This document shows, piece after piece, positions 5,992 to 29,732 of a stretch of 42,493 bases of DNA. The stretch comes from Acidobacteriota bacterium (lineage in GTDB: Bacteria; Acidobacteriota; Terriglobia; Bryobacterales; Bryobacteraceae), in contig VFZW01000011.1 in NCBI GenBank assembly GCA_016871055.1, positions 1 to 42,493 on the forward strand. Direction: 5' to 3'. The position numbers and the translations under genes were made by a program. The notes beneath the pieces are model-generated. The model was not told the DNA's origin. It did not search any database and was given only the letters and a program-made list of their open reading frames with translations. Within the stretch, counting starts at the first letter, position 1. Each line of letters begins with the position of its first letter.

Positions 5992-6888
5992 ATGGATAAG
6001 TGGTCGATAATTTCGCAGGTGCTTGGGCTGGCGATCGGCGCGGGCTTGAATTTGTACGCGGCGGTGCTCGTGACGGGTCTGGGGCTGCGGTACGGGCTGC
6101 TCAGCAATTTGCCCGGTGAATTGAACTTGCTGGCTCATCCGGCGGTGCTGATAGCCGCGGGTGTGATGTATGTGGCCGAATTCGTGGCGGACAAGGTGCC
6201 GTTCTTCACCCCGATCTGGGACGCGGTGCACACGTTTATCCGGCCGATCGGCGGCGCGCTGCTGGCGCTGGGGGCGACGGCGGATCTCGATCCCGTTGTG
6301 CGAGCGATAGCGATGATTGTGGCAGGCTCGCTGGCGTTAGGCACTCACTCTAGCAAGATGGGATTCCGCTTGATGGCGCACACGGCGCCCGAGCCGACGA
6401 CGCACTCGGCGATCAGCGTCGCGGAGGATTTTGGCGTTGTCGTGCTGTTGGCGCTCGCGTATGAGTATCCGCACATCGCCGTGCTGGTGTTTCTGTTGAT
6501 CATTGTCTGTATTGCGATGTTCGTGCCGCTGCTGCTGCGTATTCTGCGATTCCTCATCGCGGGATTGATGGGCCGCGTGGTGTCGTGGTTTTCGACGATT
6601 CCAAGCGATGACGTTCCGGAGTGGGTGCCGGATCGCAAGAACGCGGTGCGGGCGTTCGCGCGAACGGCAAAGGGCGCGCCGAAGTTGGCGTCGGGGTGGT
6701 TGCATCCCGCGTCGGGGCAGTTTCATTTTCGGCGGTGGGGTGTGAAGAAACTCATTGACGCGGGGGCCGTGGAACCTGGCGTGAATTGGGGCTTGGTGTA
6801 CAACGTCGTCCGCACCGAGGCGGGTGCGACGTTCTATGTGACCAAGGAGTGGTGCGAGGCTCTGACGTGCGTTAGTCCGACTTCTTAG
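5992..6888 (+). CDS. DUF4126 family integral membrane protein
   Basis: A 298-residue protein. The first two thirds hold several hydrophobic helices, including GLAIGAGLNLYAAVLVTGL, a HPAVLIAAGVMYVAEF segment, and a long helix near IAVLVFLLIIVCIAMFVPLL. The motif FADKVPFFTPIWD-like stretch (here VADKVPFFTPIWDAVHTFIR) and the THSSKMG turn are characteristic of DUF4126. The last 90 or so residues are soluble and basic. The function of the family is unknown. The start is 6 bp after the GlsB-like stop, so the two are probably co-transcribed. Its 3' end overlaps the convergent holin-like gene by 17 bp. Confidence 0.85.
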   Translation: MDKWSIISQVLGLAIGAGLNLYAAVLVTGLGLRYGLLSNLPGELNLLAHPAVLIAAGVMYVAEFVADKVPFFTPIWDAVHTFIRPIGGALLALGATADLDPVVRAIAMIVAGSLALGTHSSKMGFRLMAHTAPEPTTHSAISVAEDFGVVVLLALAYEYPHIAVLVFLLIIVCIAMFVPLLLRILRFLIAGLMGRVVSWFSTIPSDDVPEWVPDRKNAVRAFARTAKGAPKLASGWLHPASGQFHFRRWGVKKLIDAGAVEPGVNWGLVYNVVRTEAGATFYVTKEWCEALTCVSPTS

Positions 6889-7231
6889 ACGAGCTGTCCG
6901 TCATCCACCCGCCAACCGTTGTAATCACACTCAGCACCAGTGAGCCGAGAAACGCGGCGATGAAGCCATCAACGCGGAAGCCGGGAACGATGGCCGCCGC
7001 CAGCCACAACATCAGTGCGTTGATGACGAGCGAGAACAGTCCGAGTGTGAGGAAGCGCGCCGGCCAGGTGAAGAACTTGATGAGGTTGCCGAGCGTTGCG
7101 TTGATGAAGCCTGTGGCGGCAGCGGCCATGAACGCCGCCGATATGCCGGTGACGTGAATGCCGGGCACGAAGTATGCGGCGCTGAAGACCGCGACGGCCG
7201 AGATGGCCCATCGAACGAGTAGCGATGTCAT
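6872..7231 (-). CDS. Phage holin family (YvlD/Phage_holin_4_2-like) membrane protein
   Basis: A 119-residue protein with four hydrophobic segments, including the PGIHVTG turn and a NALMLWLAAAIVPGF segment typical of the Phage_holin_4_2/YvlD family. Despite the name these are usually chromosomal membrane proteins not tied to phage, and nothing else here is phage-like. It is the last gene of the lipid operon, starting 1 bp after the cytidylyltransferase stop, and its tail overlaps the DUF4126 gene convergently by 17 bp. The C-terminus is polar and basic (SSSKKSD). Confidence 0.85.
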   Translation of the reverse strand: MTSLLVRWAISAVAVFSAAYFVPGIHVTGISAAFMAAAATGFINATLGNLIKFFTWPARFLTLGLFSLVINALMLWLAAAIVPGFRVDGFIAAFLGSLVLSVITTVGGWMTDSSSKKSD

Positions 7232-7232
7232 T

Positions 7233-8183
7233 TCAGTAGACCGAGTAGAAGTATCGCACGGCGTGGAAGAAGACGGGCGCCGAGAAACAGACCGAATCGA
7301 TGCGATCCAGAATTCCGCCGTGGCCTTCGAGCAATCCGCCCCAGTCTTTGATGCCGCGGTCGCGTTTGATCACCGACATCACCAAGCCGCCTAGGAAGCC
7401 GAAGACGGTGATCAACAGCGACAACGCCGAGGCCGCCAGCGGCGAGAACGGCGTGATTTGCCAGAGCGCGGCGCCTAACACGGTGGCGCTGAACACGCCG
7501 CCAATCAAGCCTTCCACGGTCTTGTTGGGGGAAAGCCGCGCTGCGATCTTGCGGCGACCGAAAAGTTTGCCCCAGATGTATTGGAGCACGTCGCTGGCTT
7601 GGCCGATCAACACGAGAAACACGCACAGCAGCGCTTCGCGGCCTTGGTACCCGGGGATGTCCAACGTCAGAAGCGCGGGCACGTGGCTAAGGCAGTACGC
7701 GCAAATCATGAGTCCCCATTGCATTTCGGCGGTGCGTTGCAGGAACTTGCGCTCGTCGGCCATGAGGGCGGATAGAATCGGCAAACTGAGGAACGCGTAG
7801 ACGGGAATGAAGATCGCGAAAAGGCCGTACCAGCCGATGCCGATGAGGCCGTATTGCACGGGAATCGCGATGAAGAAACTGACAAACAATGCGACGTGAT
7901 CGGCGCGGCGTACCGGTGTTTGTGTAATGAATTCGCGAAATGCGAGGAAGGAGAGAAATCCGAAAAGTCCGATTATCGCTGGCGCGCCGGCAACGGTGGC
8001 GGCCATTGCGATCGCGATCATCATCCACCATGCGCGGATGCGTGCGTTGAGGTTGTCTACGACGGCTTGCGAGGGCCCGCCGGCGAAACGCGCGCGCAGT
8101 GAAAATCCGACGCCGCTGGCGACGAGCAGGACGCCGCCGAGCGCGGCGAAAATGAGCAGAATTTCGTGCGGCAGGTTCATCAT
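7233..8183 (-). CDS. Phosphatidate cytidylyltransferase-like protein (CdsA/YnbB type)
   Basis: Multi-pass membrane enzyme expected to convert phosphatidate and CTP to CDP-diacylglycerol. The 316 residues contain about eight hydrophobic helices, and the C-terminal third carries the cytidylyltransferase signature SVIKRDRGIKDWGG followed by GHGGILDRID, with the conserved K-D and D-R-x-D acidic residues. The ATG overlaps the stop of the upstream plsC-like gene. Because it sits with homologues of YnbA, YnbC and YnbD, I infer it plays the YnbB role, supplying the CDP-diacylglycerol used by the operon's own phosphotransferase, rather than being the main housekeeping CdsA. The two cannot be distinguished by motif alone. 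Confidence 0.88.
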   Translation of the reverse strand: MMNLPHEILLIFAALGGVLLVASGVGFSLRARFAGGPSQAVVDNLNARIRAWWMMIAIAMAATVAGAPAIIGLFGFLSFLAFREFITQTPVRRADHVALFVSFFIAIPVQYGLIGIGWYGLFAIFIPVYAFLSLPILSALMADERKFLQRTAEMQWGLMICAYCLSHVPALLTLDIPGYQGREALLCVFLVLIGQASDVLQYIWGKLFGRRKIAARLSPNKTVEGLIGGVFSATVLGAALWQITPFSPLAASALSLLITVFGFLGGLVMSVIKRDRGIKDWGGLLEGHGGILDRIDSVCFSAPVFFHAVRYFYSVY

Positions 8184-8793
8184 TGAGGGCGTAACTCCAG
8201 CATGGCGGATCGGAGGCGATCGAGAAAGGCTTCCTTAGGCTCCTGGACTTCATAGCGCAAAACAGCGCCGAAACTCATCGAGCAGAGCAGGGGAACCGGG
8301 AAAAAAAATCCTTTTGGCATCACGCGGTAGGCGTTGTCGATCCAAACGGGCACGACCTCCGCGTCCGGGCGGGCCTTCAGCAGATGATGGACGCCGGACT
8401 TAAAAGGGCCAAGCGTCTCGCCATCGCCCCGGGTTCCTTCGGGAAAGAAGATCAACGACTGGCCGGCGGCGATGGCGTCGAACGCCGGTTGGAGCGGGTT
8501 ACCGTGGACGCCGGCGCCTCGATCGACGAGAACGGCGTTAAAAACGTCCTCGATCACAAAGCGGCGAATGGGGCCTTGCAGCCAGTAGTCGGACGCGGCG
8601 ACGGGCCTCGTTGCCGCGCGCAGGGGGGGCGGGGAAGCGCGGTCCACAGCAGAAGGAAGTCCATGTGGCTGGTGTGATTGCTGCAGTAGATGCGAAGGCG
8701 CGCCTCGGGCGCGCAACCGATCCAGCGGCCTTGGGCGCCAGTCAGGAGCTTGGCTCCGGTCGTGATGAATCCGCGCACGATCGCCGCGAGCAT
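8180..8793 (-). CDS. PlsC-like 1-acylglycerol-3-phosphate acyltransferase, interrupted by a frameshift in a G7 run
   Basis: Lysophosphatidate acyltransferase family; the expected product is phosphatidate, the substrate of the next gene. The start ATG at 8793 overlaps the upstream stop by one base (TAATG). The first part in frame carries the NHTSHMD catalytic motif (NHx4D) and LLLWTALP; the rest, in another frame, starts LRAATRPVAASDYWLQ and holds the FFPEGTRG motif and the C-terminal half. The frames join at a run of seven G on the + strand (8623-8629; seven C on the coding strand). One added base restores a continuous chain of about 204 residues. The stop overlaps the cytidylyltransferase start. 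As written the gene is broken; a homopolymer sequencing error or slippage are alternatives to true inactivation. Confidence 0.85.
8623..8629. other. G7 homopolymer at the plsC reading-frame break
   Basis: Seven consecutive G on the + strand, followed by C and four more G. The two halves of the plsC-like gene meet here and need one extra base to be in frame. Runs of this type are the usual site both of sequencing indels and of polymerase slippage. Confidence 0.8.
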
Positions 8794-9200
8794 TACAGTT
8801 GCAACAATACCGCGGCGGCGAGTGTGAGCAGTTGAATCGCTACCGCTATGAGGAGGCGCTTCCATAATGCGATGCCGCCCGCGATGCGGTCTTCAATGGA
8901 GCGGGTTTCCGCCGGCGCGTTTGCAAGGCGCGCGGAGGCGAGGAAAAAATCCAACTGACTAGCGGCTTTGGCAGGGTCGTCGGCCAGCATGTCGAAGAGT
9001 TCGGAGTCGAGCTTGACGCGGATCGAGTAGTAGATTACCCCCGTCCATGCGAGCAGCGACAAGGCGATGAGCGCGTATCCAAGCGCGCTTGCCGGGCGGT
9101 GCGCGAATGCAGCGATTCCGCCGACGTGCGCGGCGTAACTGGCGGGAAGCGCTGATCGAAGGAGAGCGGCCGCGGCGCGGCAATCAAGGGCCGAATTCAT
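8793..9200 (-). CDS. Small two-helix membrane protein of unknown function in the lipid operon
   Basis: About 135 residues that I do not recognise as a named family. The first hydrophobic segment is near residues 40-60 (SALGYALIALSLLAWTGVIYY) and the second at the C-terminus (LLIAVAIQLLTLAAAVLLQL). Between them is a soluble helical stretch with acidic and Arg residues (SELFDMLADDPAKAASQLD, SIEDRIAGG). The gene overlaps the end of the phosphatase gene by 17 bases from ATG 9200, or 26 bases from an alternative in-frame GTG at 9209, and its TAA overlaps the plsC ATG. The tight embedding in the operon argues for a role with the lipid enzymes, perhaps as a scaffold; that is inference. Confidence 0.7.
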   Translation of the reverse strand: MNSALDCRAAAALLRSALPASYAAHVGGIAAFAHRPASALGYALIALSLLAWTGVIYYSIRVKLDSELFDMLADDPAKAASQLDFFLASARLANAPAETRSIEDRIAGGIALWKRLLIAVAIQLLTLAAAVLLQL

Positions 9201-10404
9201 TTCTGCCACCGGACCATTGTTGCAAACATTTCTGTGCTTTTGTGTTTAACCTGGTTAGCGGTCGGTTTTGGTGGATCTCCGCGATGGCGTCTTGGGCCGA
9301 CTGTACGCGGCCGGTTGCGATTAACCATGCCGCCACGGCTATAGCCGATCGAGAGACACCGAGGGCGCAACAAACAAGCACAGGCTTTGGTGCGGATTCG
9401 ATGGCCTCGGCGGCGCGTGTGAGATCGGTGTTTGCTGGAGGTGTCAAATCGAGAACGGGAATTACGGTTTCGGCGTTGGTGGAGAGTTCGGCGGTGAGGT
9501 CGACGACGCTTGCGAACGTGTGTCGCTCGCCGATGCGGCGCGCGCGGCCCAGCCATACTCCTTCGCGGATCTCAGTCTGAGCGGGCGTTCCGCGCGTCCA
9601 CAGGTAAGCATTGACTCGCGCGCCGATTTCGACAGGCCACATCCAGAAGGGCATGCGGCCGTTTTTCTTGCCCAGCATGGCCGCGTTGCCCGACCAGTAT
9701 GCAGCGGCGACTATCGACAGGGGAAACGCGACGAAAAGCAGTAGCCACGCCCAACCGCGTACGGTGAATGCGAATGCCGTTAGCGTGATCGCGGCCGCGA
9801 GATATGCCGAGGCCAGTTTCGGTTGCGGGTTCGCTTTTTCAGGCATCGCGGCGACGATCAAGACGCCTAGCCACGCGCCCATCGGCAAGTCGATGAACTG
9901 GTGTTGATACGTTGTCCACGCCGACAGGGCGATCAATACGAACCAGGCGCATGTCCAGCGCGGGAGCCGACGCTTGTAAAAGTCCCAGAGGATCACGGCC
10001 AGGCTGACGTGTAGCGAGGGTGCTTGATTGAACGGCTGATCGAAGCCACGTAGTTGCGCGAAGAGCCATCCGGCGGCGCCGTCGACGGCGGGCTCGGCGT
10101 AAGCCACGCGCAGCGGAAACGCGACGAACCACGCGACCGATATCAACTGCACGGCGAGCAGGCGCCGCGCGTGGGTATCCAGTTCTTTCTTCGACTTCCC
10201 GATGAGAAGGGAAAAACCGTAGAGAAGATCGCTCGACCAATACGGAAAAATTGTCCACGCGAGGAACGGCAGATGCCGCTCCCAATCGAAAGCGAGAGAC
10301 GGCACGTGGCTGCGCGCGGCCGCGGTTGCGTTAGCGAAGTTGTAGGTTAGGAAGAACAGCGGCCCCAGGAACGCCAACCACATCAGGCCGCGCAGCCTAA
10401 GCAT
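9184..10404 (-). CDS. PAP2 membrane phosphatase fused to dual-specificity phosphatase (YnbD-like)
   Basis: 406 residues in two catalytic parts. The N-terminal membrane part has about six hydrophobic helices with PAP2 motifs: APSLHVSL (the PSxH histidine) and WTTYQHQFIDLPMG, the later H...D motif. The C-terminal cytosolic part is a dual-specificity/tyrosine-type phosphatase with the Cys-x5-Arg loop CALGVSRSA. This architecture is that of E. coli YnbD. The likely substrate is a phosphatidylalcohol phosphate or another prenyl or lipid phosphate made by the operon's phosphotransferase; this is inferred. The start overlaps the stop of the hydrolase-methyltransferase gene by 8 bp. Confidence 0.88.
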   Translation of the reverse strand: MLRLRGLMWLAFLGPLFFLTYNFANATAAARSHVPSLAFDWERHLPFLAWTIFPYWSSDLLYGFSLLIGKSKKELDTHARRLLAVQLISVAWFVAFPLRVAYAEPAVDGAAGWLFAQLRGFDQPFNQAPSLHVSLAVILWDFYKRRLPRWTCAWFVLIALSAWTTYQHQFIDLPMGAWLGVLIVAAMPEKANPQPKLASAYLAAAITLTAFAFTVRGWAWLLLFVAFPLSIVAAAYWSGNAAMLGKKNGRMPFWMWPVEIGARVNAYLWTRGTPAQTEIREGVWLGRARRIGERHTFASVVDLTAELSTNAETVIPVLDLTPPANTDLTRAAEAIESAPKPVLVCCALGVSRSAIAVAAWLIATGRVQSAQDAIAEIHQNRPLTRLNTKAQKCLQQWSGGRNEFGP

Positions 10405-12127
10405 TCACTCGTTCCGCGATGGACACGGTGAAGATGCCGAACTCGTCGATGCGTTGCGCTACCTTGCGGAAGCCGGCGTTTCGGACTAACTCATCCAACT
10501 CTCCCTGCGTGCGGCGGCGCATGATCCACGGTTTGCCGTCGCGGTGGCTGGTCAGCGTACGCGCGATCATTTCGAGTTGCGGATGCCACGGTTGGCCGGT
10601 GTAGATGATGAAGCCTCTGGGCTCGATGGCTTCGGCCAGGCCGGCGAGCGATGTTTCGAGCCATGCATTGTCAGGGAATAACTCGTAGAGCCCGCTGACG
10701 ATGGCAATCGTCGGTTTCGGGTCGATCGCGGCGAGGCTGGCGCGATCGAACGCGTCGCCTTGCTCGAAGTTCGCGTTCAGCTCCTTTTCCGCGATCAGCC
10801 CGCGGCCGGCCGCAACGTTGCTGGCGTCGTAGTCCCGCAGGAAAACGTGATCCGCTTTGACGTTGGCGACGGCGTCGAGGACATAGCGGCCATGGCCCGC
10901 GGCGATGTCGACGATCTTCACTTTGCGGCCTTCGCGACGCAGAGCGGCGGCCGCCTCGGCGATGGACGCTTCGACATGTTGTTTCCGTATTCGAATCCCT
11001 CGCCAGCCGATGGCTTCGAGATAACCCTTGTCGACGAGTTTGCCGATTGGCGTGATGCCCGAGGGTTTGTTTCGATAGACGTAATCGAGTGTCGCGCCTG
11101 AATCGAAGCCTGTCGCAAGGCCGAGCCGAATGCCTTCCGACAGACGCCCGCCAGACTTCATCGACAGGCGCTGATTCGCGTACATCCAGGTTCTGGGTGA
11201 TAGCTTGCAGGCCGGCGCCGACATGGCGTCGAACTCGTCTTTCGTGAAACCACGCTTGTCGGCGTGGCGCGAGGAAACGGCCTCGTAGGGCCTGTCGAAT
11301 TGGGCGAGGATGAACTTGCGTGCCTGGGCGAGAGGTTTGGCGCGATCCCTCTCGCCGAGCGTGTCGTGGTAGAAGCCGGGAAAGCTGAGGTACTCTTTGT
11401 TCGTCGTGCCGAGCCGCTCATAGAAACGGAACTGCGGCGCTTCGTGGACGACCCAGTCCGAGCCGGAGACGAGCAGTTGCGTGGGGACGGTGATCGCAGC
11501 GGCGTCGTCGATCACGCGATCGGCGGTTTTGTACAAGCCGAGCAGGACGCGGGCCGAGATTGGGCGCTTGATGAGCGGGTCGGTCTTATAAGACTCGGCA
11601 CGCATTTCATCGTGCGTCAACATTCCCGGTTGCACGTAGCTGTTGACGAAGAAGTCGCCGTAGACCCTGTGCCAGAGCGCCAATGACGGTTTGGCGAGCG
11701 GGACGAAGAGTTTGACCTTAAATGCGGGCGAGGCGAGGACCTGGCAGCGAATTTGTGGCGCGTAATCGTGCGCCCATGCCGCGGCGATTACGGCGCCGAC
11801 GCTTTGCGCAACGATGGCGATGTTGGTTGTGGGGATTTCGTAAGAAGCCTCGATGTGCCGCACGAATTGGTCGAGATCGGCCGAGAACGTGGCCATGGTG
11901 ACGTTGCCGTCCTGCACGCCTTCGCTGCGGCCGTGGGCACGAGCGTCCCAAGCGAAGAAGGAAAACTCCGGCAGATCGATTTCATCGGGGACGTGGGCCA
12001 TGCGTCCGGAGTGCTCGTGTCCCCGGTGGAGAAGGACGATCGCGTTCGAGCCAGTACCGGGCCAGTAGCGATAGAACAGAGTCACGCCGTCTTTTGTTTG
12101 AAACGATTTCTCGATAGTTTGTCGCAT
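10397..12127 (-). CDS. Alpha/beta hydrolase fused to class I SAM methyltransferase (YnbC-like)
   Basis: 576 residues. The N-terminal 300 or so form an alpha/beta hydrolase of the monoglyceride-lipase type: LLHRGHEHSGR oxyanion region, AWDARAHGRSEG, a nucleophile serine in VAQSVGAV (Ala in place of the first Gly of GxSxG), an acid in SGSDWVV and a histidine in FPGFYHDTLGE. The C-terminal half is a Rossmann methyltransferase with the SAM loop IVDIAAGHGRYVLDAV and a following acidic residue in RDYDA. This rare fusion matches E. coli YnbC in order and length. It is not obvious whether it cuts or modifies a lipid head group. The stop overlaps the phosphatase gene; the next gene upstream ends 4 bp before its ATG. 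Confidence 0.88.
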   Translation of the reverse strand: MRQTIEKSFQTKDGVTLFYRYWPGTGSNAIVLLHRGHEHSGRMAHVPDEIDLPEFSFFAWDARAHGRSEGVQDGNVTMATFSADLDQFVRHIEASYEIPTTNIAIVAQSVGAVIAAAWAHDYAPQIRCQVLASPAFKVKLFVPLAKPSLALWHRVYGDFFVNSYVQPGMLTHDEMRAESYKTDPLIKRPISARVLLGLYKTADRVIDDAAAITVPTQLLVSGSDWVVHEAPQFRFYERLGTTNKEYLSFPGFYHDTLGERDRAKPLAQARKFILAQFDRPYEAVSSRHADKRGFTKDEFDAMSAPACKLSPRTWMYANQRLSMKSGGRLSEGIRLGLATGFDSGATLDYVYRNKPSGITPIGKLVDKGYLEAIGWRGIRIRKQHVEASIAEAAAALRREGRKVKIVDIAAGHGRYVLDAVANVKADHVFLRDYDASNVAAGRGLIAEKELNANFEQGDAFDRASLAAIDPKPTIAIVSGLYELFPDNAWLETSLAGLAEAIEPRGFIIYTGQPWHPQLEMIARTLTSHRDGKPWIMRRRTQGELDELVRNAGFRKVAQRIDEFGIFTVSIAERVNA

Positions 12128-12131
12128 CGCC

Positions 12132-12713
12132 TTAACTCAGTGCGCACCGCACACGGTTCACTACCGTAACCGCGCAAAGGAACGCTGCTAATTTCGGTAT
12201 TGCCTGTTCCAGTTCCGGCCGTAAGTCCCACCCGAGCGCGTAAACCGCCGCCAAGGTTCCAAACGCCAGCGCTCGGTCGCTCTTTCCGAATGGTCCATCA
12301 TAGCGCCGTTGGCCCGTGGCTAGAACGCAGGACAGTCCCGCTAGCTCGGTCAACGCGGCCAGGAATATCGTCGCCGCCATCCACCAGGGATCGAGAAACA
12401 AAAAGGGATAAAGCAGAGCGGCGTCGCTGATCACGTCGGTGAGTTCGTTTAGCATTGCGCCGAGCGGGGTTTGTTGCGCGTGCTCGCGGGCTAGCATGCC
12501 GTCGATTGCGTTCAACGCCATCCGTACGAATAAGACCACCGGCAGAATCCACCAGACGCGGGGTTCTTCTGATGCTCGATAGCCCGCGCCGACCGAGAGC
12601 AGGCACGCGGCGAGTGTGACTTGATTGGCCGTCACGCCCGCGTTCGCCAGCACAGCAACCGTGGGACGCAGAGCGTTTTGAAAAGCCGGCTTCAACTCGT
12701 AGACGCTGGGCAT
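12132..12713 (-). CDS. CDP-alcohol phosphatidyltransferase (YnbA-like)
   Basis: Membrane enzyme that transfers a phosphatidyl group from CDP-diacylglycerol to an alcohol. The CDP-alcohol signature is present as DGMLAREHAQQTPLGAMLNE followed by LTD: in the usual pattern DGx2ARx8-9Gx3Dx3D the third acidic position is Asn here. To my memory the same Asn occurs in E. coli YnbA, so it marks this branch rather than inactivation. The ATG at 12713 gives MPSVYELKPAFQNALRP, matching the start of YnbA, and 193 residues. A longer in-frame extension to 13016 exists but runs through a decayed toxin-antitoxin remnant and is rejected. First gene of the lipid operon; the acceptor alcohol is unknown. Confidence 0.88.
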   Translation of the reverse strand: MPSVYELKPAFQNALRPTVAVLANAGVTANQVTLAACLLSVGAGYRASEEPRVWWILPVVLFVRMALNAIDGMLAREHAQQTPLGAMLNELTDVISDAALLYPFLFLDPWWMAATIFLAALTELAGLSCVLATGQRRYDGPFGKSDRALAFGTLAAVYALGWDLRPELEQAIPKLAAFLCAVTVVNRVRCALS

Positions 12714-13044: not shown

Positions 13045-14076
13045 CTATTCGAGTCTCGACGCCTTGCGCAGCGCCTCCAACTTCGCCAGCGCCGCGCCGG
13101 AGTCGATCGACCACGCCGCTTTTTCCATCGCCTCGCGGGCGTTAGCGGCGGCGCCGACAACAAGCAATCCGGCTGCCGCGTTGAGCAGCACGATGTCACG
13201 GCGCGGGCCCGGTACGCGCCGCAGGATTCGCTCTCCGATGTCGGCATTCTTGACCTTGTCGCCGCCGCGCAGATCGGCCAGCGACGCGCGCGCCACGCCG
13301 AAGTCGCGAGGCTGCCAGACTTCCTTTCGGAACGATCCGTCCGCTACTTTCCAGACTATTGTCGAGCCCGTCGTGGTGATCTCGTCGAGTCCGTCCGAAC
13401 CGTGCACGAGATACTGCGTGCCTTCGTTTAACGCCGCCAGCGTGCCTGCCATTAGATCGCCCAGATCCTCGCCCGGCACGCCGATCAACTGCGCCGTCGC
13501 CGATGCCGGATTGCAGAGCGGCCCCATCAAATTGAGAACCGTGCGCACTTTCAATTCCGATCGGACCGGCGCGGCGTGTTTCAACGCTGGATGCAGCAGT
13601 CGCGCGAAGAGAAATCCGATTCCCGCTTCGCGAATGCACGCGCCCATTCTTTCGGGTGAGATCTCGACCGTTACGCCCATCGCTTCGAGAACATCCGCGC
13701 TGCCACATAATGACGACGCCGAGCGGTTGCCGTGCTTGGCCACTTTCACGCCGCAGCCGGCGACGACGAATGCAGCGACGGTCGAAATATTGAACGTGTC
13801 TAAACCATCGCCGCCTGTGCCGCAAGTGTCGAGTGACGGACCCGGTCCCGCATCGACACGGATCATCGCTTCGTGCATTGCACGCGCGAAGCCGGTCAAC
13901 AGTTCGACGGTCGCCAGTCGCGGGGGGACGGCGGCCAGGAAGGCGGCCAGGCGGACGGGAGAGACCGAGCCCGCTAGTATGAGCCGCATCGCCGCCGCGG
14001 CGTCGGCTTCAGAAAGGTTCTCGCCGCGAAACGCGGCCTGCAGAATTGGAAAAAACTGGTCGTCGGAATCGTTCAC
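13045..14076 (-). CDS. trpD: Anthranilate phosphoribosyltransferase (TrpD)
   Basis: Second step of tryptophan synthesis: anthranilate plus PRPP to phosphoribosyl-anthranilate. The PRPP site is [17 protein letters not shown], followed by [19 protein letters not shown] and the metal/anthranilate region GSDGLDEI. The GTG at 14076 gives 343 residues and places the N-terminal domain [15 protein letters not shown] correctly; a much longer open extension into the sucC antisense strand is spurious. No other trp gene is nearby. The start lies only 24 bp from the divergent sucC start, so at least one of the two promoters must lie inside the other gene. Confidence 0.95.
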
Positions 14077-14100
14077 GATGCTAAACTGAAAGTTTACCCT

Positions 14101-15258
14101 ATGAAAATCCACGAGTACCAAGGAAAGGCGGTTTTGGCACGCTTCGGCGTGCCGGTGCCCAAGGGCAAGACCGCTTTTACGGTGCCAGAGGCAGAAGCCG
14201 CCGCCAAGGAGTTGGGCGGCTTCGTTGTCGTTAAGGCACAGATTCACGCCGGCGGCCGCGGCAAAGGCGGCGGCGTCAAGGTTTGCAAGACCGTCGACGA
14301 CGCGGTCGAAGCATCGAGGAAAATTTTGGGTATGCAACTGATTACGCACCAGACTGGCCCGCAAGGCCAGAAAGTGCGCCGGTTGCTGGTCGAAGAAGCG
14401 CTGCCGATTGAGAAGGAAATGTATCTCGGTATCACGCTCGACCGCGCCAGCGGCAAGAACGTGTTCATGGCCTCGTCGGAAGGCGGCATGGAGATCGAAG
14501 AGGTCGCGCATCACTCGCCAGAGAAGATTCTGAAGGAGACGATTGAGCCGGGCGTTGGCCTGCAGCCGTTTCAAGCGCGCAACCTCGCATTTGGAATCGG
14601 CGTGCCGGCGGCAAGCGTGAATGGCGCGGTCAAAGCGATGATCGCACTGGCGAAGGCTTACGACGAAATCGACGCCTCACTGGCCGAGATCAATCCGTTC
14701 ATTTTGTTGAAGGACGGCCGGGTGATGGCGCTCGACGCCAAGCTGAATCTCGACGACAACGCGCTGTATCGCCACCCCGAGTTCACCGATCTGCGCGATC
14801 TGGACGAAGAGGATCCGCTAGAGGTGGAAGCGTCGAAGTTCTCGCTCAACTACATCAAGCTCGACGGCAACATTGCTTGCATGGTCAACGGCGCCGGCCT
14901 CGCGATGGCGACGATGGACATCATCAAGTACGCCGGCGGCGAACCCGCCAACTTCCTCGACGTTGGCGGCGGCGCCAACGAGGAACAGATCAAGAATGCG
15001 TTCCGCATTCTGCTTTCCGATAGCGCCGTGAAGGCCGTGTTGATCAACATCTTCGGCGGCATTTTGCGTTGCGATGTGCTGGCCGCCGGTGTCGTCAACG
15101 CCGCCCGCGAATTGGGCATCAAGCTTCCGGTTGTCATCCGCATGGAAGGCACCAACGTCGAAGAAGGCAAGCGGATTATCCGCGAGTCCGGCTTTAACTT
15201 CCAGGTTGCCGAAGGCATGAAGGACGCCGCCGAGAAAGTCGTGAGGGCCGCGCGATGA
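14101..15258 (+). CDS. sucC: Succinyl-CoA ligase (ADP/GDP-forming) beta subunit
   Basis: TCA-cycle enzyme, beta subunit, with SucD converting succinyl-CoA to succinate with nucleotide formation. The 385 residues begin [20 protein letters not shown], the canonical SucC N-terminus. The ATP-grasp part contains [16 protein letters not shown] and the metal-site AEINPF. The C-terminal ligase domain contains [13 protein letters not shown] and [11 protein letters not shown]. The stop overlaps the sucD start as ATGA. There is no clear Shine-Dalgarno in the 24-bp gap to trpD. Confidence 0.97.
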
Positions 15259-24485: not shown

Positions 24486-25736
24486 TCAAACTAGCCGAAT
24501 CCCCCGCGGATCCCAGTTGATCGCCTGCTGCTTCTCCAGGCTCAGATTCACCGCCAACGACGGCCCCGCCGTTCGAGCGCCAAACGTCGCGTCCTCAAAA
24601 AACGACTTCCGCGTGCGCACCGCGTTGATGAAGTTCGCCACGTGATCGACATGCGCATTATGCGACCGCGGCGGCGTGAAGCGCTCGCTGCCATCGGGCC
24701 GCATCCCATCCGCGGTCGGTTTCGCCGACGGATACTTCGACCGATACTGCGCCAGGATTTTCTGCTGCGTCGCCTTCGAAAACGTGTCGATCGTATAACC
24801 AGGCTCCGCTTCGCGCGGTTTGCGGTCGACGGTCACGCCGCCCATCGTCACTTCCATCGTGCCTTCACTGCCGACGAACTTCAGTCCGAACCGCTCCGGC
24901 GGCGCCGCGCCACTCGCCAGATTCACACGCAGCGCGAACGTAAACGTCGGATAGTCCATCATCGCCAGCACCACGTCGTACGCGTCGCGCCCGTCTTTCC
25001 AATACCGCACGCCGCCGGTCGCGTAGATGCGATTCGGCCTCAGGCTTGACGTCGCCACATGCAACCCCGTCAGTAGATGCACAAACAGATCACCGCTCAC
25101 GCCCGTGCCGTAGTCCTTGTAATTGCGCCAGCGGAACAACCGAACCGGCTCAAACGGCACCTTCGGTGCATTGCCCAGAAACCGGTCCCAATCGATGCGC
25201 GCCAGCGTGGCGTCCTCGCCGGGCAGCGTGTACTGCCACGCGCCCAGCGCCGTATTGCGATCGAGCCACGCTTCGATCAAATTCATCTCGCCGATCGCGC
25301 CCTGCTGTATCAACTGCTGCGCTTTCAGAAAAACCATCGCGCTCGCGTACTGGCTACCCACCTGCAAAATCTTTCCCGACTTCGCCTGCGCGTCCATCAG
25401 CATCTGGCACTCGGGGAACTTGTGGCACATCGGCTTTTCGACGTACACGTCTTTGCCCGATAGCAACACATCGTGCGCAATCTGCGCGTGCCAGTGGTCC
25501 GGCGTCGCGACGATTACCGCGTCGATGTCTTTGCGCGCGATGATCTCGCGATAGTCGCGCGTCGTGAACACGCCCGCGCCCCAGCGCTCCTTGGCGCGCT
25601 CCAGCCGCCCGTCGTAGATATCGCCGACCGCCACGATCTCGGTGCCGCCGAGCGAGAGCACATCGTTCGCGTCTCCGGTACCCATACCGCCGGCGCCGAT
25701 TAGCGCGAATCGAATTTTGTCGTTGGGAGAGGCCAT
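24486..25736 (-). CDS. Gfo/Idh/MocA family oxidoreductase without signal peptide
   Basis: 416 residues. The N-terminal Rossmann fold has FALIGAGGMGTGD, ATPDHWHA and the catalytic-lysine motif VYVEKPM. The C-terminal domain contains WDRFLGNAPKVPFEPVRLFR and a KDYGTGVSGDLFVHLLTGLH block. It acts on sugars or related polyols with NAD(P); the substrate is not readable. An AAGGA Shine-Dalgarno-like stretch lies before the ATG. It is clearly related to the oxidoreductase at 27227-28522 but lacks that protein's twin-arginine leader, so the two may work in different compartments. Confidence 0.9.
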   Translation of the reverse strand: MASPNDKIRFALIGAGGMGTGDANDVLSLGGTEIVAVGDIYDGRLERAKERWGAGVFTTRDYREIIARKDIDAVIVATPDHWHAQIAHDVLLSGKDVYVEKPMCHKFPECQMLMDAQAKSGKILQVGSQYASAMVFLKAQQLIQQGAIGEMNLIEAWLDRNTALGAWQYTLPGEDATLARIDWDRFLGNAPKVPFEPVRLFRWRNYKDYGTGVSGDLFVHLLTGLHVATSSLRPNRIYATGGVRYWKDGRDAYDVVLAMMDYPTFTFALRVNLASGAAPPERFGLKFVGSEGTMEVTMGGVTVDRKPREAEPGYTIDTFSKATQQKILAQYRSKYPSAKPTADGMRPDGSERFTPPRSHNAHVDHVANFINAVRTRKSFFEDATFGARTAGPSLAVNLSLEKQQAINWDPRGIRLV

Positions 25737-25751
25737 GTTCTTGAATCCTTC

Positions 25752-27245
25752 TTATTGAACGAAAACTTTGAGCGGCGCGCTGGGCACGCCCGAAACCGTG
25801 ATCTGCAATTCCTGTTCGCCCGGGGCGGCGTCGGCGGGCACCTCGATGTTGCACTGCTGCACACCGGGAAAGCCTGGCGCCGCGCCCAGAAACAACGCGC
25901 CCGCCGCGCGTCCGCCGAGTGTCGCATTCCACGGTCGCGCAATTCCCGCACCGGAAACATACAACACCAGTGGGCGGCCTTTTGTAACTGGCGTCGCAGC
26001 CGAATTTAGTACGCCTTCATCGAAATTCACAGCGACCGGATAAAACGCCGCCGCTGTTTCCGTAACGCTGAACAACCGCTCCACGCGGGTTGTCGAATCT
26101 TCGAGCAACTTCAATCTCGCCATGCCCGGCTGCGTCGCCGCTGGGATAAGAAGGTTGATCTGTTCCGCCGTATTTGCGAGGATCTCCGCCGCGCGATCGT
26201 TGACCGTTGCACGCAGACCGCTGAGCTTCGTGCCGAAAACCGACACGATCGAACCCGCGGTCACAGGACGGATATCGAACGACGCCGAATTGACGATCGC
26301 GTTCGCCGGTACACATGCCGTCGTCGCTTCGGCGCATGGATTCGCGCGTTCGGTGCGCGGCTTGCAGCCCGAACTCAACGCACAAACGTCGTCGCGCAAC
26401 TTCGGCAGCAGCGGGTAGAGAGCCACGCCGGGGCACTCGGTTCGTCCACTGGCTTGCGGTGAGAGCCCGGCGTCGCGATGCCCGCTGATGACGTTCAGAT
26501 CGAGCCCGCTGGCCGCATGTCGCGCTTGGCCGAGTGGATCGAGATTGTACTTCGCCGCCTGCCATGCGAGCAGTTCGCGCAGTTTCGTCAACGAGGCGGA
26601 TGACGGCGCCCGATCCGTGAACGTCCCCATCATCGAAAAGCCCGCCGTGCCCGTATTGACGCCAGAAAAGTGCGCGCCCAAAATTCCATCGCCGCGCCCT
26701 TCATACGCCACGCCGTTCGGATCGATCAGATAGTTATAGCCGATATCGGCCCACCCATTGCCGCGCACATGCAACTCCCAAATCGCGCGCATCACCGCCG
26801 CCCAATCGGTCGACGAATTTGATCCCGCGGTGTGATGCACGACGAGATGAGTCGGCGTTGTGCGCGACGGACTCGCATTCGCCGGGCAGACAAACGGGGC
26901 GGGGCACCACTGCGCGCGGCCTACGATCGCCGGGTCTCCTTCGGCGACCACGGCGCGCGGCGTTACGCCGGGATCAATGAGCAGCAACTTCGCCGAACCC
27001 GCGCCTTCCACTTCAACTCGCCGCGCTGGCGAGTCGAACCACACCAGCGTGCCCTCTTCCGCATCGGTCGACAGCTCACGCCACGAAGACCATGCGACGC
27101 CGTCGAAGGAAGTCCGCACGCGTACATGCCGGTGCTCGCCCGCGGCGACACCGAGCGCGCGTGCTTCGCCTACCAACAGGCGCCGCTCGTCCGCGCCAAA
27201 ATAGACACACGCCAATAACAGCGCCGCTAGCCCTTGACTTCGCAC
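25752..27245 (-). CDS. Secreted N-acetylmuramoyl-L-alanine amidase/PGRP protein with TIGR03437 C-terminus
   Basis: 497 residues with a short signal peptide. Residues about 110-285 form a peptidoglycan-recognition/amidase-2 domain: HLVVHHTAGS, GWADIGYNYLIDPNGVAYEG, SGHRDAG and TECPG give the zinc ligands (a His of HHT, His256, Cys271) and the tyrosine, so it should be catalytically active on the MurNAc-L-Ala bond. The last 180 residues start with IVNSASFDIRPVTAGSIVSV, the TIGR03437 module typical of Solibacter surface proteins. It lies between two related oxidoreductase genes, overlapping the Tat one by 19 bp. A role in cell-wall recycling or attacking other bacteria is possible. Confidence 0.88.
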   Translation of the reverse strand: MRSQGLAALLLACVYFGADERRLLVGEARALGVAAGEHRHVRVRTSFDGVAWSSWRELSTDAEEGTLVWFDSPARRVEVEGAGSAKLLLIDPGVTPRAVVAEGDPAIVGRAQWCPAPFVCPANASPSRTTPTHLVVHHTAGSNSSTDWAAVMRAIWELHVRGNGWADIGYNYLIDPNGVAYEGRGDGILGAHFSGVNTGTAGFSMMGTFTDRAPSSASLTKLRELLAWQAAKYNLDPLGQARHAASGLDLNVISGHRDAGLSPQASGRTECPGVALYPLLPKLRDDVCALSSGCKPRTERANPCAEATTACVPANAIVNSASFDIRPVTAGSIVSVFGTKLSGLRATVNDRAAEILANTAEQINLLIPAATQPGMARLKLLEDSTTRVERLFSVTETAAAFYPVAVNFDEGVLNSAATPVTKGRPLVLYVSGAGIARPWNATLGGRAAGALFLGAAPGFPGVQQCNIEVPADAAPGEQELQITVSGVPSAPLKVFVQ

Positions 27246-28522
27246 TTCGTCGCGTCCCAGAACAGCGTCTTCTTCTCAAAGTAGGAACGGTTCGAAAGCA
27301 ACGCCGGGCCCGCCGCGCGAAGCCCGAACAACGCATCTTCCACCACCGGTGTCCGCGTCTTCACGGCATTCCAAAAATTACGATGATGATCGAGATGATC
27401 GCTGTAGCCGCGCGGCGCGTGGAAGCGATCTTCGCCCACCGGCATCATGCCGTCAGCGGTTGGCACCGACGGCGGATACTTCGCGTTGTAGTTCTTCAGG
27501 ATCTCGTCCTGCACTTTGCGCGGGAACGTGCCGATCGTGTGGCCCGGCGCGTTTTCACGTGTGACCTTCGCCACCGTCACGCCGCCGCCGACCGTCATCA
27601 CTCCTTCACTGCCGACAAACCGGAACCCGCTCGTTTCACCCGCGCCATTGACGAAATTCACGCGAAGCGCTAAGTTGAAGCCAGGGTAATCGTAGAGCCC
27701 CATCATTACATCGGGGACATCGCGTCCGTCCTTCCAAAACCGAAGCCCACCGGTCGCGAACACACGCGACGGCCCCTGCGCGCCGGTGATGAAATGCATA
27801 CCGCTGAACAAATGCACGAAAAGATCACCCGCCACGCCCGTGCCGTAGTCCTGATAGTTGCGCCAGCGGAACAAACGAATCGGTTCAAACGGCCGCTTCG
27901 GGGCGCTGCCAAGGAAGCGGTCCCAATCGATCGTCTTCGGCGACGCCTCCGGGTCCATCGAATACTGCCACGCGCCGATCGCCGAGTTACGATCCCACCA
28001 CGCCTCGACTAAATTCAGCTCGCCAATCGCGCCAGCCGCCAGCAACTGCCGCGCCTTGTCATATACGATCGACGACACCCGCTGGCTGCCTACCTGCAAA
28101 ATCCGATTCGTCTTCTTCGCCGCCGCGATCACCGCATGCCCGTCATCGACCTTCTGCACCATCGGCTTCTCGACGTAAACGTCCTTGCCCGCGTTCATCG
28201 CGTCGATGGCGATCTGCGCGTGCCAGTGGTCAGGCGTCGCCACGATCACTGCGTCGATGTCCTTCTTCGCCAGCACTTCGCGATAGTCGCGCGTTGTGAA
28301 CAGGTGCGAGCCCCACTCTTCCTTCGCGCGCGCCAGGCGGCCCTCGTAAACATCGGCCGCGGCGACCATCTCGGTGAGTCCCGTCTGCAGCGCCGCGTGC
28401 ACATCGCCCGACCCCATTCCGCCAGCTCCAATCAGCGCAATGCGAATCTTGTCGTTCGGGCGTGTCTGCGCCAGCGCGGCGGTTGTCGCGGTGGCGGCTA
28501 GGAAGTTTCGTCGAGTAGCCAT
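27227..28522 (-). CDS. Gfo/Idh/MocA family oxidoreductase, Tat-exported
   Basis: 431 residues from ATG 28522. The N-terminus MATRRNFLAATATTAALAQ is a twin-arginine leader; after it come IALIGAGGMGSGDVHAAL, ATPDHWHAQIA and DVYVEKPM. The C-terminal domain has FLGSAPKRPFEPIRLFRWRN and GTGVAGDLFVHLFSGMHF, close to the paralogue at 24486-25736. A longer in-frame extension upstream to 28909 runs antisense to the next gene and is not real. Exported Gfo/Idh proteins bind their cofactor before export; many act on sugars in the periplasm. Overlaps the amidase start. Confidence 0.9.
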   Translation of the reverse strand: MATRRNFLAATATTAALAQTRPNDKIRIALIGAGGMGSGDVHAALQTGLTEMVAAADVYEGRLARAKEEWGSHLFTTRDYREVLAKKDIDAVIVATPDHWHAQIAIDAMNAGKDVYVEKPMVQKVDDGHAVIAAAKKTNRILQVGSQRVSSIVYDKARQLLAAGAIGELNLVEAWWDRNSAIGAWQYSMDPEASPKTIDWDRFLGSAPKRPFEPIRLFRWRNYQDYGTGVAGDLFVHLFSGMHFITGAQGPSRVFATGGLRFWKDGRDVPDVMMGLYDYPGFNLALRVNFVNGAGETSGFRFVGSEGVMTVGGGVTVAKVTRENAPGHTIGTFPRKVQDEILKNYNAKYPPSVPTADGMMPVGEDRFHAPRGYSDHLDHHRNFWNAVKTRTPVVEDALFGLRAAGPALLSNRSYFEKKTLFWDATKCEVKG

Positions 28523-28652
28523 GGCAGTACTGTTCTTAATTGAGAATACCCCGTACTCCGCCGGAAAGGCGCCACGTCGTTGAATTCTCCTGCCGCACCC
28601 ATACGTCGTTGTGGTAGCATTCCCCTGAAGTTCAACCCCAGGGAGGTTCTCT
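28523..28652. promoter_or_regulatory. Divergent intergenic region with a strong ribosome-binding site and small hairpin
   Basis: 130 bp between the divergent Tat oxidoreductase and the 28653 gene. GGGAGG at 28641-28646 is a strong ribosome-binding site for the latter. CCCTG (28623-28627) can pair with CAGGG (28639-28643) across an 11-base loop, which would cover part of that site. Promoter boxes could not be assigned with confidence. Confidence 0.4.
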
Positions 28653-29732
28653 ATGCGTTTGTTGCTCGGTTGCGCGGCCATCGCCGCTTCCGTCGCGTTC
28701 TCCGCCGAAGGCCCGTCAATGGCCGCAGGCAAAGTGGAATTGAAATCCGCAGACGTCCTCGCCTTCGGCCCCGCTGGAATTCTCTTCGTCGGCGACACCG
28801 TGTCGGCCACGCTTACCGCGATCGACACCGGCGACAAAACGCCAAACAAGAACCCCGGCCAAATTGAATTAAAGGCGATCAACGAGAAGATCGCTGCCGT
28901 TCTCGGCACCGCCGCCGATCAGATTTCGATCGCCGACGTCGCCGTCAATCCCGTCTCCCGCCGCGTCTATCTCTCGGTTGCTCGCGGCCGCGGCGCGCAG
29001 GCCGTTCCGCTCGTCATGACTACCGACGCTTCCGGCAAAATCAGCGAACTCTCGCTCGATAACGTGAAGCACGCCAAGGTTGCGCTCGTCGACGCGCCCT
29101 CCGCCGAAGCCAAGAACGCCCGAGGCCAGAGTCCACGCATGGAAACTATCACCGACATCGGTTACGCCGAAGGACGCGTCTTCGTCGCCGGTCTGTCGAA
29201 TGAAGAGTTCGCCTCCAGCCTCCGCTCGTTCCCGTATCCGTTTAAGGCCGCCGACAAGGGCGCAGGCATCGAAATTTTCCACGGTGCGCACGGCCGCTTC
29301 GAAACAAACGCGCCGGTTCGTACGTTCGTCCCTTATAAGGTTGCCAATACGCCGCACCTCCTCGCCGCCTACACCTGCACGCCACTGGTGACGATTCCGC
29401 TCTCGGAACTGAAGCCCGGCAACAAGGTGAAGGGCAAGACCATCGCCGAACTGGGCAATCGCAATCGCCCGCTCGACATGATCGTCTACACCAAGGGCGG
29501 TAAGGATTTTATCCTCATGGCCAACTCCAGCCGTGGCGTGATGAAGCTGCCGACTGCCAATCTCGACAGCTACTCCGCCATCGTTGCGCAGACCGAAAAG
29601 CAGGGCGTACCGTACGAAACGATCGCCGAGCTCAAGGACGTGCAGCAGCTCGATAAGTACGACGACAAGTCGGCCATCCTGTTGCAGACCACCGGCGGTT
29701 CGATGGATCTGCGCACGATCGCGCTGCCGTAG
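28653..29732 (+). CDS. Secreted protein of unknown function, probable beta-propeller
   Basis: 359 residues with a signal peptide (MRLLLGCAAIAASVAFSAEG). The body shows repeated short strands with G-I-FVGDT, RRVYLSVARG, GRVFVAGLSNEEF and KDFILMANSSRGVMKLP, the look of a YVTN-like or six/seven-bladed propeller, but no family could be named. The strong GGGAGG ribosome site just upstream suggests good expression. It is followed after 2 bp by the Ig-like gene, so the two form a unit. Confidence 0.75.
   Translation: MRLLLGCAAIAASVAFSAEGPSMAAGKVELKSADVLAFGPAGILFVGDTVSATLTAIDTGDKTPNKNPGQIELKAINEKIAAVLGTAADQISIADVAVNPVSRRVYLSVARGRGAQAVPLVMTTDASGKISELSLDNVKHAKVALVDAPSAEAKNARGQSPRMETITDIGYAEGRVFVAGLSNEEFASSLRSFPYPFKAADKGAGIEIFHGAHGRFETNAPVRTFVPYKVANTPHLLAAYTCTPLVTIPLSELKPGNKVKGKTIAELGNRNRPLDMIVYTKGGKDFILMANSSRGVMKLPTANLDSYSAIVAQTEKQGVPYETIAELKDVQQLDKYDDKSAILLQTTGGSMDLRTIALP

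Follow-up and report, generated by a model that had tools for sequence, protein, structure and literature searches.

A stretch of 42,493 nucleotides from an Acidobacteriota bacterium of the family Bryobacteraceae (assembly GCA_016871055.1, contig VFZW01000011.1, positions 1 to 42,493), here called the window, carries a real and conserved lipid operon of the Escherichia coli ynbABCD family. The operon consists of the genes A, C, D, X, a PlsC-like gene, and B, and this is the common rather than an expanded form of it. We lean towards the view that this six-gene form builds and trims a minor phospholipid. What would surprise a specialist is a conserved double replacement of aspartate by asparagine in YnbA, a protein with the fold of the cytidine diphosphate (CDP)-alcohol phosphotransferases. 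It is possible, and we propose it tentatively, that YnbA represents a subfamily of these enzymes with a rebuilt metal site, in which two signature aspartates have become asparagines and two new invariant glutamates, E90 and E123, have appeared.

Results

The four genes that the initial annotation had likened to ynbABCD are present on the minus strand (Table 1), and blastp against the E. coli K-12 operon (b1408-b1411) identified them as orthologues of YnbA to YnbD at 36 to 55% identity: 46% over 198 columns for YnbA (E, 1e-44), 40% over 273 columns for YnbB (E, 4e-56), 55% over 574 columns for YnbC (E, 0), and 36% over 433 columns for YnbD (E, 8e-66). The proposed content of lipid enzymes is supported by Pfam, with CDP-OH_P_transf (PF01066) in YnbA (E, 6e-11; 43 bits against a cutoff of 22), Hydrolase_4 and Methyltransf_20 (E, 7e-140) in YnbC, DSPc in YnbD (E, 6e-10), and CTP_transf_1 in YnbB (E, 2e-63; 215.6 bits against a cutoff of 24). 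Both unusual fusions match YnbC and YnbD in the domain order of E. coli, as judged by Pfam, blastp, and the PAP2 model, the gene set co-occurs in related genomes, and the acidobacterial host is likewise supported. RefSeq names both fusions in E. coli, so their kind is already known. The window and E. coli thus share orthologues of all four genes, the same two fusions, and an arrangement on one strand, but the order is A-B-C-D in E. coli and A-C-D-X-PlsC-B in the window, and neither PlsC nor X is present in E. coli. We took orthology, not order, as defining, because A-C-D-X-PlsC-B is the commoner order among the loci kept.

These loci came from a scan of genome contigs with the window YnbC, in which 431 of 448 pattern-matched stretches encode a YnbC relative. 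The best 80 were kept and, together with same-genus stretches, the window, and E. coli, and minus 15 short loci and 5 duplicates, gave 89 nonredundant loci with C. Their C proteins form 19 groups at 75% identity, and Variovorax and Pseudomonas, numerous among the kept 80, weigh heavily in the counts. A accompanies C in 86 of the 89 loci, D in 87, B in 80, PlsC in 79, and X, detected with an iterated profile, in 77. This co-occurrence and the number of stretches with a YnbC relative place the locus beyond chance. The usual order is A-C-D-X-PlsC-B; as recorded, the commonest order is A-C-D-PlsC-B, in 36 of 95 rows with duplicates included and X underdetected. Judged by midpoints, X falls between D and either PlsC or B at 71 of its 77 loci. 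Two Aquitalea loci, which have PlsC and B upstream, carry it on the far side of D, and at the other four the frames run together so that its place cannot be read. Among the 10 loci without PlsC, E. coli is the clear complete case, and contig ends cut several others. Clusters of Variovorax, Pseudomonas, Xenophilus, and others have the same six genes in the usual order, with C proteins 57 to 60% identical to that of the window, but they lack the holin-like neighbour H and have their PlsC motifs in one frame.

The description of the operon as expanded, with the PlsC-like acyltransferase, X, and H added to the E. coli set, has to be turned around, since PlsC and X belong to the common form, in Pseudomonadota as well as in Acidobacteriota, and it is E. 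coli that lacks both. H is only a genus-level neighbour, found in 4 of the 89 loci and in a fragment of the sister genome, and is probably not a core member. In a phylogenetic tree, E. coli groups with Aquitalea and Chitiniphilus, with a long E. coli branch and a Shimodaira-Hasegawa-like approximate likelihood ratio test value of 92 (below 95), and the clusters of these two genera have the order A-B-PlsC-C-D. This is most simply read as a loss of PlsC and X in E. coli from a cluster arranged A-B-PlsC-C-D-X.

More distant acidobacterial loci vary: two (L158 and L159) hold all six genes in other orders, one (L161, 2819-7003) has A-B-PlsC-C with no match for D or X, and one (L160, 7654-9414) has a lone YnbC gene flanked by a YHYH protein/DUF6702 pair on one side and a beta-helix protein on the other. 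The flanks inspected differ among the loci, and no steady partner was found among the flanking and inserted genes examined. The cluster at one locus (L018, 9830-13360) is interrupted between D and X by a beta-lactamase-fold protein and a permease of the MacB/FtsX type. In Shinella and Rhizobium clusters (L063, L072, L078, L090, L092, and L107), A lies on the strand opposite C.

In the window's genus, 13 of 19 genomes contain Methyltransf_20, and none of 22 further genomes from the same order has it above the cutoff. The phylum-wide search gave matches in 13 of 297 genomes, full-length ones in 5, including that of the window; the distribution of the operon in Acidobacteriota is thus patchy. Of 5426 complete E. 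coli genomes, 4242 carry ynbABCD at a single place with a coverage of at least 80%. An insertion sequence lies under the match in each of the five E. coli copies listed, and these strains may thus tolerate loss of the operon.

Table 1. Genes on the minus strand of the window between positions 6872 and 12713
Gene	Product	Position	Strand	Basis
A	YnbA-like membrane protein, CDP-alcohol phosphotransferase fold	12132..12713	minus	Pfam, blastp, structure model
C	YnbC-like fusion of monoacylglycerol-lipase-type hydrolase and Methyltransf_20 methyltransferase	10397..12127	minus	Pfam, blastp
D	YnbD-like fusion of PAP2-type membrane phosphatase and dual-specificity phosphatase	9184..10404	minus	Pfam, blastp, conserved residues
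X	Small two-helix membrane protein	8793..9200	minus	Iterated profile, invariant residues; no Pfam match
PlsC-like	1-Acylglycerol-3-phosphate acyltransferase gene, frameshifted	8180..8793	minus	Pfam, motifs
B	YnbB-like CTP:phosphatidate cytidylyltransferase (CdsA family)	7233..8183	minus	Pfam, blastp
H	Phage_holin_4_2-type (holin-like) membrane protein	6872..7231	minus	Pfam

Of the six junctions between these seven genes, four overlap; the claim that nearly all starts overlap the preceding stops holds for them but not for A and C, which are 4 bases apart, or B and H, 1 base apart. A promoter scan of the locus found none, and a terminator scan found fewer than in shuffled sequences.

The structure model of YnbA (mean predicted local distance difference test score, 93) matched solved CDP-alcohol phosphotransferases with Z scores of 11.3 to 19.1 and therefore has their fold. 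The nearest are phosphatidylinositol-phosphate (PIP) synthases (Z, 18 to 19; best match, Z of 19.1 and root mean square deviation [rmsd] of 3.8 for 189 aligned residues), which are also the nearest solved relatives by sequence profile (E, 6e-12). The signature reads N..DG..AR(8)G...N...D, whereas the canonical one is DxxDGxxAR(x8)GxxxDxxxD, so that the window protein has asparagines at the first and third positions (N68 and N89) and keeps D71 and D93. This exact signature occurs in 83 of 86 family members. The others are a copy that departs after the third position, where the frame is lost (L041), one with AK instead of AR (L019), and one that starts inside the motif (L071). Asparagine occupies the third position in all 86 and the first in all 85 that are readable there, E. 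coli included, and three further distant copies agree with this. Of 45 other CDP-alcohol phosphotransferases (the 30 best scoring of a 60-genome search, 5 from the window's genome [G000], and 10 weaker, hand-picked ones), 44 have all four aspartates and one does not match the pattern. Aspartate stands at the second and fourth positions in all 83 full-length YnbA copies, which also keep the two glycines and the AR pair (with AK in a single copy). E90, next to the third signature position, and E123, in a later helix, are likewise glutamate in all 83; MtPgsA1 has no acidic residue at either place.

The four aspartates of MtPgsA1 bind two metal ions (PMC6506517). In MjPSS, any change of the four lowers or abolishes activity, and replacing the third with asparagine abolishes it without rescue by Mg (PMC8633023). 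Because the four-aspartate signature is incomplete, we call YnbA CDP-alcohol phosphotransferase-like rather than a canonical member; it has the fold, but the plain enzyme label given in the initial annotation is doubtful. Judged from the sequence, YnbA must, if it works, use a metal site unlike that of its known relatives, and E90 and E123 might, as a guess, compensate for the lost charges. Around R152/R155 of MtPgsA1 the MAFFT and HMMER alignments differ by one residue, and we therefore base no claim on these residues. An effect of the D31-to-N30 replacement in YnbA on base specificity was considered and set aside; asparagine at this place is common in the superfamily.

YnbB shares with CdsA and TmCdsA the CTP_transf_1 domain and most of the motif of the CDP-diacylglycerol synthases (CDS), KDX5PGHGGX2DRXD. 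It differs from them in two places: the window protein has glutamate for the motif proline, all other fixed letters being present, and glycine at the position of Asp219 in TmCdsA, where eukaryotic CDS also have glycine (PMC7018664). In the 81 family members, the proline position holds E in 68, P in 6, Q in 3, and A in 1, with 3 outside the pattern, and the Asp219 position holds Gly in 72 and Asp in 6, again with 3 outside it. The six with aspartate are those with the motif proline (L001, which is E. coli, L062, L064, L084, L071, and L103). None has the usual gene order; B stands before PlsC or beside A in these clusters, and the usual-order clusters that were read have the eukaryote-like glycine. 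This pattern agrees with the grouping of E. coli with Aquitalea and Chitiniphilus.

A second CdsA-family match mostly accompanies the operon in the genus, with two matches each in the C carriers G003, G004, G007, G009, G012, G014, G017, and G018 and three, two of them partial, in the carrier G006. Genomes without C (G010, G015, and G016) have one each; the exception is G001, which has no C match, yet has a second, partial CdsA-family match. The window's genome, 95.7% complete, shows a single PF01148 match, the operon's own YnbB. That YnbB is its only CdsA was rejected, though not disproved, given the two matches in the sister genome G007 and seven further genus carriers, 93 to 100% complete. 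Since relatives with the operon have two matches, the housekeeping cdsA gene most likely lies in an assembly gap.

The PlsC-like acyltransferase of the initial annotation has both of its motifs, but they are not in one open frame: NHTSHMD in the N-terminal piece and FPEGT in the C-terminal piece are in different frames, with the break at a C-rich run near 8620-8645. Pfam found Acyltransferase on both pieces, below the cutoff on the N-terminal one. Among 80 members, 79 have the motifs NHxxxxD and FPEGT in a single frame, and the only exception is the window. In the sister genome, which is 95% identical, the gene (L028, 1431-2225) is frameshifted at a different place, and the alignment to L028, over 4476 bases, has no gaps other than these two 2-base differences; C on L027, also of the sister genome, has a compensating pair of one-base gaps near 11271-11273. 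With A and part of C aligned on L027 and the rest on L028, and with the spurious placements of X and H on L027, which lacks both genes, excluded, each gene has a ratio of nonsynonymous to synonymous substitution rates (dN/dS) of 0.04 to 0.23 against the sister genome, indicating purifying selection. The two PlsC pieces, compared apart, have dN/dS values of 0.06 to 0.16. The breaks are therefore very recent or are sequencing or assembly errors, and an old pseudogene was rejected on the same ground.

The catalytic residues of the fusion proteins are conserved. In YnbC, S109, D224, and H254 of the hydrolase half and D407, A409, and G411 of the methyltransferase half are invariant in 20 sequences. 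The hydrolase half has the fold of monoglyceride lipase (Z, 29.9; rmsd, 2.5; 269 aligned residues), and hydrolases filled the list in a fold search with the whole model. YnbC thus shares its N-terminal fold and catalytic triad with monoacylglycerol lipases such as human MGLL and Mycobacterium tuberculosis Rv0183 but differs in being fused to a Methyltransf_20 methyltransferase. In the window YnbD itself, the Pfam search gave no match for the PAP2 half; a PAP2 model recognizes it in 11 of the 19 family members that were aligned. Across these 19 sequences, P129, S130, L131, and H132 (PSLH), H168, and D172 of the PAP2 half are invariant or nearly so, and D319, C346, and R352 of the dual-specificity phosphatase half are invariant. 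X, for which the Pfam search of the window protein gave no match, has five invariant residues in 16 sequences (R61, D65, D84, R100, and R105) and is probably a small membrane partner.

Discussion

For the pathway that we favour, the building and trimming of a minor phospholipid, we infer the substrates, the order of the steps, their topology, and the product. PlsC would acylate lysophosphatidate to phosphatidate, YnbB would convert phosphatidate and CTP into CDP-diacylglycerol, and YnbA would move the phosphatidyl group onto a small molecule, for which a phosphorylated alcohol or sugar is the most likely candidate. The extra phosphate would be taken off by the dual-specificity phosphatase half of YnbD, which is probably cytoplasmic, and the PAP2 half of the same protein may act on a lipid phosphate at the outer face. 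The hydrolase half of YnbC would take an acyl chain off a lipid or lysolipid, and the methyltransferase half may methylate the head group or the product.

Several points weigh against this pathway. Two signature aspartates of YnbA are asparagines, and the change at the third position kills MjPSS. YnbB departs from the CdsA motif at two places, and E. coli YnbB does not substitute for CdsA in growth (PMC6362211). YnbB is the only PF01148 match in the window's genome. With its PlsC broken, the strain would need another acyltransferase; its genome has two strong acyltransferase matches elsewhere. The literature searched holds a biochemical study for YnbB only among the operon proteins, and no product, substrate, or clear phenotype is reported in it for A, C, D, or X. 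Finally, lipid turnover would also account for the phosphatases and the lipase.

What has been reported on E. coli YnbB (PMC6362211, PMC7018664, PMC10881803, and PMC8609368) suggests another product. YnbB, which in E. coli has the motif proline, was reported to synthesize CDP-diacylglycerol in vitro (PMC7018664), and its overproduction raises the level of MPIase. Membranes that overproduce CdsA make N-acetylglucosamine (GlcNAc)-PP-diacylglycerol from CTP, phosphatidate, and GlcNAc-1-phosphate. YnbB and YnbA might thus make an MPIase-like glycolipid with a pyrophosphate link, such as GlcNAc-PP-diacylglycerol, with a sugar phosphate instead of a hydroxyl attacking CDP-diacylglycerol; such a phosphate nucleophile might not need a strong general base, which would suit the altered metal site of YnbA. 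However, deletion of ynbB is reported to be without clear effect on growth or MPIase, the level of which stays as before (PMC6362211). A transposon screen picked up ynbB, but its authors report the gene to be dispensable for phosphoglyceride-linked enterobacterial common antigen (PMC8609368), and neither PMC6362211 nor PMC8609368 mentions ynbA. We consider such a glycolipid unlikely.

A turnover or salvage operon, in which YnbC and YnbD would break down lysophospholipids and lipid phosphates into pieces for recycling by PlsC and YnbB, would agree with the two phosphatase domains and the lipase domain and their conserved catalytic residues. Turnover alone leaves the methyltransferase and the near-constant YnbA unexplained, and we give it a low probability.

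The asparagines in all readable copies of YnbA, together with the loss or crippling of activity that such changes cause in its relative MjPSS (PMC8633023), could also mean that YnbA has the fold but no catalytic activity and serves to bind CDP-diacylglycerol or as a scaffold for the other enzymes. In an inactive protein, drift would be expected at the remaining aspartates, the glycines, the AR pair, E90, and E123, and the constancy of these residues in the 83 full-length copies therefore makes this rather improbable.

That YnbA is a PIP synthase and YnbD a phosphatase yielding phosphatidylinositol is very unlikely, although PIP synthases are the closest solved relatives of YnbA by sequence and fold, the dual-specificity phosphatase half of YnbD has PTPMT1 in its list of matches (below other phosphatases), and inositol-1-phosphate synthase occurs in the window's genome and in 5 of the 6 other acidobacterial carriers tested. 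The PIP synthases MtPgsA1, RsPIPS, and MkPIPS share with YnbA the fold and part of the signature, but YnbA lacks the first and third aspartates, and the K or R that directly follows the fourth aspartate in PIP synthases (PMC6506517) is V in 74 and L in 7 of the 83 full-length copies, with one A and one I. Of the 11 carriers tested, 5 gave no match for inositol-1-phosphate synthase, namely, all four proteobacterial ones and G003, and the E. coli control was silent. The V or L and these five carriers make phosphatidylinositol unlikely as the general product.

If YnbA does have a rebuilt metal site, one metal ion or a phosphate nucleophile could serve in this enzyme, whose chemistry should fail under the current model of its family, and most E. 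coli strains and hundreds of other bacteria could then have a phospholipid class beyond the products of the known enzymes. The literature searched by operon name or by family set gave no description of the operon; a persistence study lists a ynbC substitution (PMC13313352). The function of the operon is directly testable in E. coli K-12, and since the six-gene form reveals the parts that E. coli lacks, PlsC and X, the pathway becomes testable as a whole.

Other features of the window

Upstream of A, at 13045-14574, an anthranilate phosphoribosyltransferase-like frame is listed from a far-upstream TTG. By eye, its N-terminal part is unlike the enzyme, and the true start is therefore probably further in. 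At 24486-28909 on the minus strand, a peptidoglycan-amidase-like gene lies between two oxidoreductase genes that seem, by eye, to belong to one family.

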